IMG/VR virus record: IMGVR_UViG_3300025131_000488
Location: 1 to 21,974 of that record
Origin: a virus
Strand: one strand, 5' to 3'
DNA: 21,974 nucleotides
Position numbers and translations under genes: made by a program. Shown one piece after another: positions 11,301-16,156 of the stretch (within the stretch, counting starts at the first letter, position 1; every line of letters begins with the position of its first letter). The notes under the pieces are model-generated. The model did no database searches. It was not told the DNA's origin and worked only from the letters and a program-made list of their open reading frames with translations.

Positions 11301-11387
11301 TGAAATGCCTTGAGGATTTTGAGCTCCATCATAAGCGGGTGGAGTTCCGTACCAAGTTAAATCCGATATTAAATCTATTAGTGCCAT
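8304..11387 (-). CDS. 1027-residue baseplate/tail structural protein with N-terminal internal repeats
   Basis: The N-terminal 300 residues are imperfect repeats: GFTPGRK-LD-TEFTGVTG occurs at 37-55, 85-103 and 141-159; related GFTPD at 189 and 250; and SDWTYDYPATILSSYGFYN twice, identically, at 208-226 and 272-290. The C-terminal 150 residues (QVHQTPIIFRAFIQNIGD, TREISITFIVAATTKEEL, WDIDAELPMYWTIDLSI) look like a tail-tube-type domain as in T4 gp48/gp54 tube-initiator proteins, so the protein may connect baseplate to tube. The middle (about 310-860) is Asn/Gly/Pro-rich and unrecognised. The ATG overlaps the tape measure stop (TAATG), giving strict coupling and suggesting joint assembly. Structural role is likely; the gp48/54 relation is inference. 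Confidence 0.7.
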   Translation of the reverse strand: MALIDLISDLTWYGTPPAYDGAQNPQGISGTNEHQTGFTPGRKHLDETEFTGVTGASPTLSFNRPNVFSTVLGFTDNWINTDASGFTPGRKQLDPTEFTGVTGGPGALEFSRPAVPNTIIGAYDGAFNPAGPPSSNVDQTGFTLGRKQLDPTEFTGVTGTAPDLFFNRPSVFSTVLGNVDNLHNTAAKGFTPDLIHRSPSQFQGITISDWTYDYPATILSSYGFYNTTMPGKFNPGTTVVDNLHNTAALGFTPDIQYRPLNKRSLFRGISPSDWTYDYPATILSSYGFYNERMPDKKLGSTVNTKFSPKYVPEGNVVGFQADGSRFSFNKDTLRPFTKVPIGRSLDVSYQDREAKNKFWIDDKTYNVNGDASFLNQGGQGYPFPSFDGTQYDWKPLKHTGWNPNSRYGDVVGINSKTKPNTNFGLADTYTTNSPIDDMYNKFVVRDEAFNPVGYAREPFILRGIQRPGKTENQRWGFGVSGPWADDGLMRAGVVASVDRLAMDVLRIGKWLIKPKGILWMVKQFGLQQSNPTYESFSGTPGMPLAQMNKIWTPINTLANVATNALGLHWQRHGILPGPTVGRYEAIFKFRDSLLNLDGKAANRLYKTGERKGAGIFTNFAVALTKKIPNLGNVNGPNTLYGIPGTSTLTGNPIIGISRAVDSRGKWTNDYMALNGYPRQQNQYASLLSPSISTNLSPTGRLKAADKRKLKAHFRPPQLPNVGFEHQSFFGKPPLLKANEKDKNVPPTEINGYSQPATPTDPDPLKKLPNIQKYATVSYGKLPTKEKAITPSSFHDFRSLIDKSDSVKFMGSSKAAAYAEKNIQTKYGIPDSGKVGVDRSDFTKSTGLSDPINMLSKGNDYGEDKKDFIKFKFQVHQTPIIFRAFIQNIGDSINPTWSAEQEQGDTSPIYGIETLTREISITFIVAATTKEELKILWEKTDRLSQIMLPMGASDFTAQKMMVTIGNLIVNRRGWISGFSVDIDPETPWDIDAELPMYWTIDLSIILDLRSAYVSNSTSTIYTGLSNVT
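10528..10575 (-). repeat. 48-bp direct repeat, copy A, within the large baseplate gene
   Basis: Encodes most of the second SDWTYDYPATILSSYGFYN block. By eye it is identical base for base to 10720-10767, which is notable because flanking repeat units have diverged. Confidence 0.9.
10720..10767 (-). repeat. 48-bp direct repeat, copy B, within the large baseplate gene
   Basis: Partner of the copy at 10528-10575, 192 bases away (an exact multiple of three). Recombination between them would delete or add one 64-residue unit in frame. Confidence 0.9.
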
Positions 11388-14104
11388 TAGCTAACTAACG
11401 CTCCTCCCGTTCCGATTCTATATGATGAGTTAATACTACCTTCTACTTTTATTGCATCTACTACTCTATCGCCTACTACAATTTGAACTTCTTTATTATC
11501 TATAGCTGTTAATAAAGTTTTAATTTGATTTAAGGCACTAACTACTCCAGACATATCGGTTCCGCCACCACCGGATGCTCCATGGCCCGGGCTCATTGAT
11601 ACGCCATCATTTTTAGTGCCTTGGAATAACGTGCCTTCTTTAGGCGAAGCTACGACAGGTCCACCATTGGGGTCCATTGCTAAATCACCAACGCTCGAAA
11701 ATTTAGTATACAATGCTGCTACTGCTCCTGCTACACCAAATGCTGCTGGGATACCAAGGCCAAAAGGTATTTTAGCGAACGATGCAAATATACTGCCGAT
11801 TGCTTGTGCAATTGCTAATCCTGCATTAATTAATGCCTTGCCGGCCAAAATAACCATATATGGAATTAAAACACCGCCAATTATTCCACCCATTGTTTCC
11901 AGTACCGTTGATATTACTGTTACGAGTCCTGAGGCCCATTCAAATTTTAATGAAAGCTCATCCCATAATTCTTTAATCCATGTAATAACCTTGCCTATTG
12001 CATGAAAAGGTGCTAAGAGTCCTTTAATAATTGGTTCAATTCCTTGGAATACGGCCATGAGACCTTCTGCTGCCGGCAATAGTGCAGAAATAAACGTGTT
12101 CTTTACTTTCTCAAATGATTTCATTACTTGGTCCGTCTTTTGAGCTTGCTGTCCTCTAGCAAGTAATGATTGTGCATCAAGGTCTGCCATTTCTGCCGCC
12201 GACAAATTCATTTTAGCAATTAAGTCGGCTTCTTCTTTGGTCATGTCTTTTGTCTTTTCTGCCAACATTGTAGCTTGCAGTAATTGATCAACTTCCATTC
12301 CAGCTGCTTTTGCTATAGCCTTTTTCTCCAACAAGGTCCTACCTTGTAGTTCTTTATATGACCCTGCTTCTTTAAGAACTTCTTTTGACATTCCAACAAG
12401 ATCACCTTCTAATGCTAATCGCCTGGCTGCGTCAAAATTAATCGGTTTTCCTAATAAAGCTTGTGCTTCAAATTGCGATGTTAACGATCCTTCAATGTCG
12501 AGAAAATTTTCTGCGGTCGCGGCCATTTCATCTAAAGATACGCCTATTTTTGCTGCATATACTGCTGCCTTGGCTAAGGCCTTTGGGGTGCCGGCGAAGT
12601 ATTTAGCTGCCGTTTTTGAACTTTTTGCAATATCTTTCATTACCTTGCCAGGTGCAACGCCAGCAGCTTCAGATAAGGAAGCTGTAAATATTTGTATGTT
12701 TTCAGCAAATTTTTCATCTGCTCCCATAAGCATTAATGATGATTGAACCTTGGCGGCTTCGGCAGCGCCATAGCCAAATGCCTTTCCTATTTCTGAAACG
12801 TTTAATACCGCTTGATCAGAAAGCATATCCATTCTTCCAAATTGTTCTACCATGGTAGATTGAACAGCTACTATATCTTCTGTTGATGATAATAAATTTG
12901 TGTTAGATTCTTGTAAATGTTTACTGGATAAATATAATTCTTTTGATTGAGTTACAGACAATCCGGTTTTTTCTGCAATTTCTTTAGCGTGTTTTGCGAC
13001 GTGGCCGTATACTGCAACTAAAGCGGTCATTGTAACTAACGCTATGCCAATTGGACTAAACGCAAATTTCATTATTCCTTGAAGTACTTTTGACGATTTT
13101 ACTAATTCCTTAAATTTACCAACACCTTCAGTTAAACCTCCTGGCGGTCCAATTAGCCCCTTCTGAATGGACTCTGTAACTATGGAAGTCATTTCTTTCT
13201 TAAACGCACCTAATCCTAATATTTTGCTTAACTGTCCACCAAATGGTAATTTTCCTATTGCAGATTCAAGTGCATCGAACGGAGCCATAACTGCAGCTGA
13301 CATTCCTTCAGATTTCTCTATTAAAGTGTCATACGCTCCAGCTGCAAATTCAAGTTGGTGGACTGAACCTTTAAGATCATTTAAGTATTGGTTGGCCTCT
13401 GCCCTTTGGTCATGTAAAGTAGCTAATTGGTTTGCTAAAGCGATTGCTTTTGCGTTTTGTACTTTTCCGGTGAACAAATCTATTTGTCCGCCTTCCTTTT
13501 TTGCCTGTTCAATATCTTTCATGAGTTGTGCTTCTTGATCTGCTAAATCTATAAGTCCAACTCGATGAGCTTCTTCAGCTCTCAACATTGCTTCTTTAGC
13601 TCCTGCTAAATTAAGACTTTGGAGCTCTCGGTCTCCTATATTAGTTAAATTATCTAATTCTTCCCGTCTTAATTGTGCAATATAACCAACTGCAGGAGTC
13701 ATGGCTTCTGTAATATTTTTAATATTTGATGTTTCATCTGCTGCATGTTTTAAAATATCTGCATATATTTTAGATTCATTTGCGGTTGAGTGTATAAGAT
13801 CGTTAACGACCTGCTGGAGCCGGCCAAATTCTTTTCCGCTCTTAACATGCTGAGTAAGTATTTTTGATATATCACCTAATTCGGTTGCATGGTCTTTAGT
13901 TTTACTAAGTATACTTCCGTGGATCTTATCTGATATCTCTAATAACTTATTTATTTTTTCTTGAGTTCCAGCTAATTCTATTCGTAACTTTTTTTCTTGT
14001 TCGGAGGCACCGGATTTCCGGGCTTTTTTAATCGCCTCGTTTAGATTGAGTTCTTTTTGCAGTAACTTATTTCTTTCTTTTTGATCTTTATTTTTATCGG
14101 CCAT
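11387..14104 (-). CDS. tail tape measure protein
   Basis: 905 residues, Lys/Glu/Ala-rich and largely helical. The first 330 residues are coiled-coil-like (KERNKLLQKELNLNEAIKKA and similar). Two hydrophobic regions follow, at about 343-370 (GIMKFAFSPIGIALVTMTAL and beyond) and 738-800 (a long Gly/Ala/Ile-rich stretch), then a Gly-rich tail. This arrangement, together with position just after tail-assembly genes and before baseplate hub genes, is typical of tape measure proteins, which set tail length and reach the host membrane during DNA entry. In T4 the role belongs to gp29 (590 residues); a longer protein would imply a longer tail tube if the proportionality holds. A weak AAAAAGA site precedes the ATG. 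The stop overlaps the next start. Confidence 0.82.
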   Translation of the reverse strand: MADKNKDQKERNKLLQKELNLNEAIKKARKSGASEQEKKLRIELAGTQEKINKLLEISDKIHGSILSKTKDHATELGDISKILTQHVKSGKEFGRLQQVVNDLIHSTANESKIYADILKHAADETSNIKNITEAMTPAVGYIAQLRREELDNLTNIGDRELQSLNLAGAKEAMLRAEEAHRVGLIDLADQEAQLMKDIEQAKKEGGQIDLFTGKVQNAKAIALANQLATLHDQRAEANQYLNDLKGSVHQLEFAAGAYDTLIEKSEGMSAAVMAPFDALESAIGKLPFGGQLSKILGLGAFKKEMTSIVTESIQKGLIGPPGGLTEGVGKFKELVKSSKVLQGIMKFAFSPIGIALVTMTALVAVYGHVAKHAKEIAEKTGLSVTQSKELYLSSKHLQESNTNLLSSTEDIVAVQSTMVEQFGRMDMLSDQAVLNVSEIGKAFGYGAAEAAKVQSSLMLMGADEKFAENIQIFTASLSEAAGVAPGKVMKDIAKSSKTAAKYFAGTPKALAKAAVYAAKIGVSLDEMAATAENFLDIEGSLTSQFEAQALLGKPINFDAARRLALEGDLVGMSKEVLKEAGSYKELQGRTLLEKKAIAKAAGMEVDQLLQATMLAEKTKDMTKEEADLIAKMNLSAAEMADLDAQSLLARGQQAQKTDQVMKSFEKVKNTFISALLPAAEGLMAVFQGIEPIIKGLLAPFHAIGKVITWIKELWDELSLKFEWASGLVTVISTVLETMGGIIGGVLIPYMVILAGKALINAGLAIAQAIGSIFASFAKIPFGLGIPAAFGVAGAVAALYTKFSSVGDLAMDPNGGPVVASPKEGTLFQGTKNDGVSMSPGHGASGGGGTDMSGVVSALNQIKTLLTAIDNKEVQIVVGDRVVDAIKVEGSINSSYRIGTGGALVS

Positions 14105-14120: not shown

Positions 14121-14411
14121 TTACATTAAGCCTAATTTTTTTAATAATTTTATCCGACGTTTTTCCTTTGCAGTTGGGTCTTTTAGATCCGCTAGAATAT
14201 CGGCACTTCCTTGCAAGTTAGTAGCAAGATCATGGGTGGCTTTAATATATGCATCTATTGCATCACCAACTTTACCATCTTTTCCTGCTTGTTTCAACAC
14301 ACGTTGTATTCGTGAAGAAAATAATTTTTTGAATAATTTACCAACAAGTCCTTCATTGATTTGATTTATTTCCTTTAGCTGCTTTTGCTCTATTGATTTA
14401 CCTTTTTGCAT
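14121..14411 (-). CDS. small basic helical protein between gp51-like frame and tape measure
   Basis: 96 residues, Lys-rich at both ends, predicted all-helical, with LVGKLFKKLFSSRIQRVLKQ (about 22-41) amphipathic. Unrecognised. It has its own ATATTTAT motif about 30 bases upstream and a TAGGA site, so it starts a transcription unit that includes the tape measure gene 16 bases downstream. Position next to the tape measure suggests a tail-assembly accessory or a tape-measure-associated protein. Nothing in the sequence proves it. Confidence 0.7.
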   Translation of the reverse strand: MQKGKSIEQKQLKEINQINEGLVGKLFKKLFSSRIQRVLKQAGKDGKVGDAIDAYIKATHDLATNLQGSADILADLKDPTAKEKRRIKLLKKLGLM

Positions 14412-14461: not shown

Positions 14462-14704
14462 TTATCTGCGTGGTTTTCGGAAGTTAGGCTTTTTGATATT
14501 AGAGGTTGCCTTCTTCGAAGCTTTCGTTTCAGCATCAGCTTTATCTTTAAGTGCTTTCTCAATACTTTTAATGTAAAAGGTACGTAACCAGATAGGCATA
14601 TCGTAAACATCAGACCAATTGAAGCCACCATTGCCATAGTAGATCAGATCAAATATCTGTCGGTGCAGAACGGGCCTATAGTTAGGCCCTAGGCCAAAAA
14701 AAGT
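14462..14704 (-). CDS. gp51: gp51-like frame, expressed by frameshift from gp26-like
   Basis: This frame encodes HRQIFDLIYYGNGGFNWSDV, YDMPIWLRTFYIKSIEKALK and a Lys/Arg-rich C-terminus, which I recall from gp51-type proteins of marine T4-like phages. It opens directly after an in-frame TAA that abuts a seven-T run at the end of the gp26-like gene. Between that stop and the conserved block there is no ATG, GTG or TTG; the first in-frame ATG falls inside the conserved block (the M of DMPIW). The only evident route of expression is a frameshift from gp26-like after Phe288 (+1, or -2), giving about 77 extra residues and a 365-residue fusion. A single-base homopolymer error would instead make one continuous fused gene. 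A different-frame ORF starting at 14637 overlaps this one and is not the gene. Confidence 0.75.
   Translation of the reverse strand, partial: TFFGLGPNYRPVLHRQIFDLIYYGNGGFNWSDVYDMPIWLRTFYIKSIEKALKDKADAETKASKKATSNIKKPNFRKPRR
14672..14702 (-). other. probable programmed frameshift site with stimulatory hairpin
   Basis: On the coding strand a run of seven T (14702-14696, read AAC TTT TTT TGG in the gp26 frame) is followed after six bases by a perfect hairpin: GGGCCTA, loop ACTA, TAGGCCC. The gp26 stop codon (14684-14682) lies at the base of the loop. The spacing suits a stimulatory structure. A -1 shift would stop after two codons; +1 or -2 enters the gp51-like frame. Confidence 0.65.
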
Positions 14705-15560
14705 TTATATTTATGGGAAGGTCTATATCGAAAGGTTCATCAGTATTATTATCTATAAATTCAATATTTAAATCTACATCTGGTGTTACTGATGATATAT
14801 AATCTCTAAATGCTTTAGAATCTATTGCAAGAAATTCATCATTAACAAAGGTTCTTATAGTTCCTTGTGCTATATCACCATCTATGGCAGTAATTGTATG
14901 TATTAATCGAGTTGTTAATTGTGCATCACCCATACCAGTTCTTTTAAAAGCTCTCTTTTTTGCCTTTAATTCTTCATCTATTTGATTTATATTTTTATGT
15001 GATAACACTTTAAAGGAAATAGTTCTTTTGGATGCCGGTAATTGAAATGTAAATTCATTGACTCCAGGAGTAATTAATGATTCATCAAATTCTTTATGAT
15101 CTAATTGAGTTAAATCAATAGTTTCTTTTTGTTGTTCTCCGGATGGTCCTGTAACCGTTACTTCGTAATCTTTTCCATATCCTAAAACTCTAGCTGCGAT
15201 CATTACAGCATTCTTATCTCCAACTAATAAATCATTATAATTAATTTTTTCGCCTTTTCCATTTCCAATAATTAAAGCTCTAAATAATTTATCTAAAACA
15301 ACTCCTTGTTTAATATATGATTGTGTAGTAAGAATATCTTCTTCCCTTGCAGTCATATATTTCATTTCTATTTGTCCTTGGGATAAAGGATTATCTTTAT
15401 CATACAACAATCCTTTACTTGGAAGATCTATTATTTCGGTTGGAAATTTATGTTCTCGTGCTTTTGTTTCTTCATACTGCTTAACTGCAGCTGCTTTAGC
15501 TCGTTCGTCTGTCATCTTTGCTTTCGTTTTTCCTGGATACTGGTCTGTAACTGTTGGCAT
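14682..15560 (-). CDS. gp26: gp26-like tail/baseplate assembly protein
   Basis: 292 residues when read to its own stop. The block FPTEIIDLPSKGLLYDKDNP (39-58), with QIEMKYMTAREEDILTTQSY (63-82) and IKQGVVLDKLFRALIIGNG shortly after, is characteristic of gp26-type baseplate proteins in cyanophage and other marine T4-like phages (T4 gp26 is 208 residues). The N-terminus is Lys-rich and the C-terminal half is beta-rich and acidic. It lies between the tube gene and the tape measure, the place where other tailed phages keep tail-assembly chaperones made as short and frameshifted long forms. Its last codons hold the slippery T run leading into the gp51-like frame. It has an AAAGGAA site, a long leader, and a promoter motif just after the tube terminator. 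Confidence 0.75.
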   Translation of the reverse strand: MPTVTDQYPGKTKAKMTDERAKAAAVKQYEETKAREHKFPTEIIDLPSKGLLYDKDNPLSQGQIEMKYMTAREEDILTTQSYIKQGVVLDKLFRALIIGNGKGEKINYNDLLVGDKNAVMIAARVLGYGKDYEVTVTGPSGEQQKETIDLTQLDHKEFDESLITPGVNEFTFQLPASKRTISFKVLSHKNINQIDEELKAKKRAFKRTGMGDAQLTTRLIHTITAIDGDIAQGTIRTFVNDEFLAIDSKAFRDYISSVTPDVDLNIEFIDNNTDEPFDIDLPININFFWPRA

Positions 15561-15667: not shown

Positions 15668-16156
15668 TTAGAATTGTAATATTGCGTAATCGTATTTTAT
15701 AGTTAGTTCAATGTTGATGGCATCTTCTGTTGCCCAATCCATATCACCAAATGTAGCAGAGCTAATCCAAGCTCCTTTTATTGTCCATTCTTCAACTTTA
15801 TCACCAACTGGACCTAAAGCATTTAAGATTAAATCCTTTTTATAGAAATCACTATATCCATCTCTACCTGTTACTGATTCATGATGTAAACGAACCCATT
15901 CCATTACTGATTGAGCGCCTGATGGAACTACTGGATCATATAATGTTAATGTTATATCTTGCCATCTAGATTTTCCTTTTAACTTTCGCTCTACATTGAT
16001 ATGATCAAGAATTAATTCTCCTTGGTCTATTGATGGCCGGCTGGCCGCTTTTACGATATAGGAAGGAATTCCTTCTACATACATTATAAACCTATTTGCT
16101 ACTTTAGGTTCGAATGCCGTAAACATTACCTCGGTTGGATCTAATAATTCTGCCAT
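15668..16156 (-). CDS. gp19: tail tube protein (gp19)
   Basis: 162 residues, almost the same length as T4 gp19 (163). FEPKVANRFIMYVEGIPSYI (15-34), ISSATFGDMDWATEDAINIE (131-150) and the closing LTIKYDYAILQF are the tube-protein pattern, with paired beta strands forming the inner barrel of stacked hexamers. It directly follows the sheath gene, as in T4, and is bracketed by its own promoter motif, an AAGGAG site and an intrinsic terminator, matching a protein needed in many copies. Confidence 0.92.
   Translation of the reverse strand: MAELLDPTEVMFTAFEPKVANRFIMYVEGIPSYIVKAASRPSIDQGELILDHINVERKLKGKSRWQDITLTLYDPVVPSGAQSVMEWVRLHHESVTGRDGYSDFYKKDLILNALGPVGDKVEEWTIKGAWISSATFGDMDWATEDAINIELTIKYDYAILQF

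Follow-up and report, generated by a model that had tools for sequence, protein, structure and literature searches.

A conserved seven-T site and a downstream open frame point to a predicted forward frameshift in a T4-type tail assembly chaperone gene

The making of a short and a long tail assembly chaperone by ribosomal frameshifting, the G/GT strategy, is known across phages in -1, -2 and +1 versions, and the chaperone genes of T4-like phages are likewise already known (PMC5009743, PMC10885494 and PMC12846349). Under the model for lambda, the tape measure protein is covered by gpG, and gpGT contacts the tube subunit through its T domain (PMC5009743). For Mu a -2 shift is reported, and the tail chaperone of the haloarchaeal myovirus HSTV-2 has been reported as very likely +1 shifted (PMC5009743). 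A 2016 review treated T4 as the exception to G/GT frameshifting (PMC5009743). According to PMC10885494 and PMC12846349, Vladimirov, Gautam and Davidson identified the tail assembly chaperones of T4-like phages in 2022 and argued for a mechanism other than G/GT frameshifting in these phages; the two citing papers give differing accounts of that work. In T4, matches to phrog_150 and PF12322 are found for gp26 as well as for gp51, which carries about 45 more C-terminal residues; gp26 corresponds to the short, G-like form and gp51 to the long, GT-like one. The locus described here resembles T4 gp26/gp51 in family (PF12322/phrog_150 for the N part), in a homologous C-terminal extension and in inferred role. 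It differs in that T4 has a separate gene for each form, with the long form fused already, whereas here there would be one gene and a frameshift. With lambda gpG/gpGT, P2 E/E+E' and Mu it shares the arrangement of a two-form chaperone made, as we propose for this locus, by frameshifting between the tube and tape measure genes. Lambda, however, uses a -1 shift at another site, and its likeness to our locus is one of arrangement.

We analyzed a window of 21,974 nucleotides, the whole of positions 1 to 21,974 of IMG/VR virus record IMGVR_UViG_3300025131_000488 (Table 1). A preliminary description, made from this DNA alone, had a gp51-like frame opening at the seven-T run that ends a gp26-like gene, with no ATG, GTG or TTG before its conserved block. 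Re-reading the run and the frame on the minus strand bore this out. The gp26-like ORF ends in AAC TTT TTT TGG CCT AGG GCC TAA, and its T run (14702-14696) is exactly seven long. Skipping T14696 (+1) or shifting by -2 enters the same frame, GGC CTA GGG and onwards, which stays open for 77 codons up to a TAA at 14464-14462 and contains no ATG, GTG or TTG before codon 32. Translation also reproduced the fusion of 365 residues described for a +1 or -2 shift (365 being the length of the +1 product) and the immediate end of the -1 frame, which reads Leu-Ala-stop. The seven-T run alone proves nothing, because about one TTTTTTTGG is expected by chance in 22 kb, and the case rests on conservation.

Table 1. 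Features of the tail chaperone locus, in coordinates of the window
Feature	Coordinates	Strand	Basis or remark
Tail tube protein, upstream neighbour	15668..16156	-	phrog_4542 tail tube, 1.4e-25
TAC-N, short tail assembly chaperone, gp26-like, 292 aa	14682..15560	-	PF12322, phrog_150, AlphaFold2, structure matches
TAC-NC, predicted 365-aa frameshift product, GT-like	14462..15560	-	translation with a single +1 step
Putative shift site AAC TTT TTT TGG	14694..14705	-	P-site TTT 14699-14697, predicted skipped T 14696, A-site TGG
7-bp hairpin with ACTA loop	14672..14689	-	six bases past the T run; spans the zero-frame stop
C-terminal extension of the long form, 77 codons and stop	14462..14695	-	+1 frame
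96-aa ORF between chaperone and tape measure	14121-14411	-	no family match
Probable tape measure protein, 905 aa, downstream neighbour	11387..14104	-	position; immuto equivalent; homologues

The gp26-like protein matched PF12322 (T4_baseplate; 1.4e-6, 28.6 bits against a cut-off of 24.5) and phrog_150 (baseplate hub; 8.3e-11), and a family search with the extension alone gave no match. The N part, modelled with AlphaFold2, and the extension were folded separately. For the N part (pLDDT 86), Foldseek against the PDB returned no significant match (2ob9 at E 2.7), and a sequence search among solved structures returned none. When the top 1000 Foldseek chains were re-aligned with VIA-align (998 chains), the first two were 3klu (Z 5.5) and 2ob9 (Z 4.9), over 80-91 residues; because these Z values are middling, the fold match is support and not proof. 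The 2ob9 entry (HK97, gp13) is titled as a tail assembly chaperone, and 3klu is YqbN, which we take to be a tail-chaperone relative. The extension model consists of three predicted helices, for which a fold search gave no convincing match. The gene order is sheath, tube, chaperone, small ORF and tape measure. Apart from the window's own copy, 36 related loci have homologues of the tape measure ORF, and the equivalent gene in Flavobacterium phage immuto is annotated as tail tape measure. The earlier assignment of this locus to the tail-chaperone position, ahead of the tape measure gene, is thus upheld by its tube and tape measure neighbours. The small 96-aa ORF occurs in only two related loci besides the window's own copy.

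A search with the gp26-like protein found 80 viral-contig loci as well as phage isolates, and nearly all of these loci carry T7 (or TTTCTTT) shortly 5' of the zero-frame stop, with the +1 frame open for about 200-330 nt further. To avoid selecting on the shift site, we ran an independent search with the extension peptide pattern alone, which showed that at least 593 stretches encode a relative. Among the 80 loci kept from this search, 79 have the gp26-like frame in the +1 relation to the extension, and TTTTTTTGG or TTTCTTTGG is kept in 68 of 69 distinct junctions. The 21-base DNA motif TTTTTTTGGCCTNGGGNCTRA occurred in 119 viral stretches, and all 88 distinct ones are this chaperone junction; queries with SP-15 and LR756508 yielded no further viral relatives. 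In a dereplicated set of 38 representatives (<80% identical), every junction has TTT followed by TTT or CTT and then T, together with an open +1 frame. Both Phe codons are TTT, save one CTT. No representative has a +1-frame stop within 150 nt, and each has a stop in at least one other frame. The flanking codons are similarly biased in this set: 25 of 27 Asn codons before the run are AAC (background 25%), and all 22 Asp codons after the shift site are GAC (background 23%). The extension evolves, as judged from these sequences, as a protein, with differences distributed over codon positions 1/2/3 of the +1 frame as 30/17/53% (38 representatives). The base preceding the run is T in none of 75 distinct extension-found junctions, compared with a 38% background, and no run of eight Ts occurs in the extension-found set. 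The constant non-T base suggests avoidance of the U UUU UUY heptamer present in many -1 relatives; the site stands outside that class in two respects, having no T before the run in the extension-found set and, in the window, a -1 frame that stops within three codons. In one locus (L304:1180-1260), TTC TTC TGG replaces the T run and the extension lies in -1, which may reflect a single change of direction or an erroneous indel.

The preliminary description had read the locus as a gp26-like gene fused to a gp51-like frame. The gp26-like half of that reading stands; the downstream frame falls short of a whole gp51, its match to T4 gp51 being confined to the C-terminal ~45-50 residues. Its further proposal, that gp26/gp51 are counterparts of G/GT, is supported and is not new, having been published in 2022 according to PMC10885494 and PMC12846349, which cite it. 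What it did not foresee is a -1 extension in the rest of the T4-like superfamily. Directly after gp26, an extension in the -1 frame is present in P-SSM2, S-RIM14, S-SZBM1, HTVC008M, phiM7, nt-1, Desulfovibrio phage 7757, Ackermannviridae and others, commonly at the site T TTT TTC and often annotated as a separate small 'gp51'. We aligned TAC-NC with 27 relatives read with the same +1 step, and hhalign matched the +1 extensions to the -1 extensions plus the T4 gp51 C-terminus (Prob 90.7, E 1.3e-6; reversed control 0.3). In cyanophages, pelagiphage HTVC008M, Emdodecavirus, Ackermannviridae and nt-1, as in the +1 clade, the short form is directly followed at a T-rich site by this extension in another frame. 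There the extension is in -1, commonly with a T before the run, whereas the +1 clade has it in +1 at V TTT TTT T, where V is any base but T. In a tree of the N part, the -1 group, which includes T4, is split from the +1 group with strong support. A 595-kb phage (LR756511.1) on the +1 side of this tree, on a long branch, has a -1 extension with an ATG overlapping the gp26-like stop. In four loci (L013, L023, L029 and L073), the N part has CxxC pairs like those of T4 gp26/gp51, which are absent in the window protein, possibly a zinc site gained or lost. No second, separate and complete long-form gene was found in the 22-kb window, which is a fragment, so that a distant copy is possible.

The perfect 7-bp hairpin described six bases after the run was found as well (GGGCCTA/TAGGCCC, arms 14689-14683 and 14678-14672), and in the window's own clade it is accompanied by paired changes and extreme codon bias. 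All seven pairs form in 61 of 92 distinct sequences of the GGG subclade. The Pro codon that pairs with GGG is CCC in 73 of 76 cases versus about 10% in the gp26-like genes of the set, and the Arg codon in the hairpin is AGG in 53 of 78 versus 9% elsewhere in the same genes. Only free hairpin positions count, because the DNA search pattern fixed part of the 5' arm. Two pairs show covariation (p=1.8e-6 and 0.003), with P-values that are too small because they take no account of shared ancestry, so that the dereplicated counts given above are safer. We rejected a universal downstream hairpin, as it is missing in most relatives outside the window's own clade. Set against well over 200 related loci, the hairpin and the missing start given in the preliminary description both stood up, the hairpin as a feature of the window's own clade. 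Its absence outside the GGG subclade suggests that it would tune rather than enable the shift.

Together, the conserved site and frame, the tube-chaperone-tape measure order and the middling fold matches point to a programmed frameshift making a G/GT-type pair, a proposal of the preliminary description that well over 200 related loci now support. Going by sequence, there is little doubt that a ribosome slip at the seven Ts lets the virus produce its tail chaperone in a short and a long form. We consider it likely that this is a T4-type tail assembly chaperone in which a minority +1 slip gives TAC-NC, with a hairpin in this clade that tunes the shift and with lambda-like partner roles. From site, frame, conservation, homology and fold resemblance we infer that the frameshift occurs, as well as its direction, its efficiency and the partner contacts. 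Most ribosomes would end at the short form, TAC-N. In a minority, the P-site tRNA-Phe on UUU would re-pair with the overlapping UUU one base forward (C UUU UUU U GG) while the A-site UGG waits, and one U would be skipped. These slipped ribosomes would bypass the zero-frame stop and append the 77-residue helical extension to give TAC-NC, and in the window's clade the hairpin six bases 3' of the run would modulate the shift. If lambda G/GT is a guide, the N part may coat the tape measure protein, and tail tube subunits may be recruited by the C extension. A P-site tRNA that slips forward is also the point of likeness to prfB, whose +1 site is CUU UGA, to Listeria PSA tsh/cps and to HSTV-2; prfB and PSA differ in the codon, which in the window is UUU before a sense codon, and in the genes concerned.

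Inside the seven Ts, perfect re-pairing of the P-site UUU is possible at +1 as well as at -2, and the variant TTT CTT TGG allows both; Flavobacterium phage immuto has a CTT TGG junction (FLG). In a Mu-like -2 shift, aided by the hairpin, the P-site tRNA-Phe would move back two bases and add one extra Phe (FFFGLG versus FFGLG), so that the predicted junction peptide, which in the +1 product would end ...NINFFGLGPNYR, would carry FFF. Exact re-pairing, the report of -2 in Mu (PMC5009743) and a conserved hairpin at a spacing typical for backward shifts all speak for such a shift, to which we still allow a small chance because downstream hairpins usually go with backward shifts (PMC10885494). Most relatives, however, keep the site though they lack the hairpin. 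Moreover, Streptococcus phage GXN1 (GAA TTC TTT CGT) and LR756508 (AAC TTT CTA TTC) both keep a homologous +1-frame extension at sites where -2 re-pairing is poor (TTC TTT CGT and TTT CTA) and good re-pairing (UUU to UUC) is confined to +1. The GXN1 evidence is supportive and not decisive, because its gp26-like protein is just 24% identical. The frame given earlier for a +1 or -2 shift is confirmed, and the GXN1 and LR756508 sites favour +1 over -2 as the probable direction.

Besides a ribosomal slip, both proteins could come by ordinary translation from mixed mRNAs if RNA polymerase slipped on the T run, which is strictly seven long in most members. We regard this as improbable, since the frame relation is unchanged at TTTCTTTGG and TTT-C sites, where the Ts number no more than three or six, the run never reaches eight in the extension-found set, and the bacterial cases cited have runs of nine (PMC5009743). 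Nor do we give much credence to the extension being a separate small gene with a non-standard start or re-initiation at the gp26-like stop, the T run being a by-product of the Phe-Phe-Trp C-terminus. Many relatives do have a chance in-frame start upstream, databases list the piece as its own small ORF, and FFWP is conserved in the zero-frame protein. Yet we found no conserved start: 37 of the 69 distinct extension-found junctions have none at all, and 13 of the 38 representatives have no ATG, GTG or TTG before extension residue 12. Sequence conservation, furthermore, sets in at the first base past the run, and the synonymous choices TTT, AAC and GAC are constrained far above background. That a sequencing or assembly indel split a single gene is extremely doubtful: homopolymers are prone to error, but the arrangement recurs in independent metagenomic contigs, in isolates (four Flavobacterium 'immuto' phages and Microcystis phage Mel-JY01) and in relatives whose site, TTTCTTTGG, has no homopolymer.

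A +1 slip at the seven Ts would mean that a large T4-related sister clade, comprising hundreds of metagenomic viral contigs, keeps the frameshift and makes it forward, not backward. We lean slightly towards a view in which one chaperone family has three ways to its two forms, namely a -1 shift, a +1 shift and, in T4, a duplicated gene fused in frame. The non-T base and exactly seven Ts of the +1 clade may then suppress unproductive -1 shifts, and the hairpin added in one subclade may stimulate a forward shift, which is unusual in bacteria. As homologous sites would shift opposite ways, they offer a natural set useful for learning what sets direction. In the literature, with Vladimirov 2022 represented by its title and the papers citing it, we found no description of a +1 clade of the T4-type family or of the exclusion of T before the run. 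Our analysis also corrects annotation: in the public relatives checked, the extension is missed or called a hypothetical protein, and the records of immuto, Mel-JY01 and Bacillus phage SP-15 give it as a short hypothetical protein with no frameshift noted. Elsewhere in the window, three adjacent minus-strand ORFs (870-1190, 1199-1537 and 1591-2256) have near-identical first 20 residues, MNLQE(Q/N)YKRLFK(A/G)R..., and are wholly divergent thereafter, as if their common N-terminus were a shared targeting or packaging tag.
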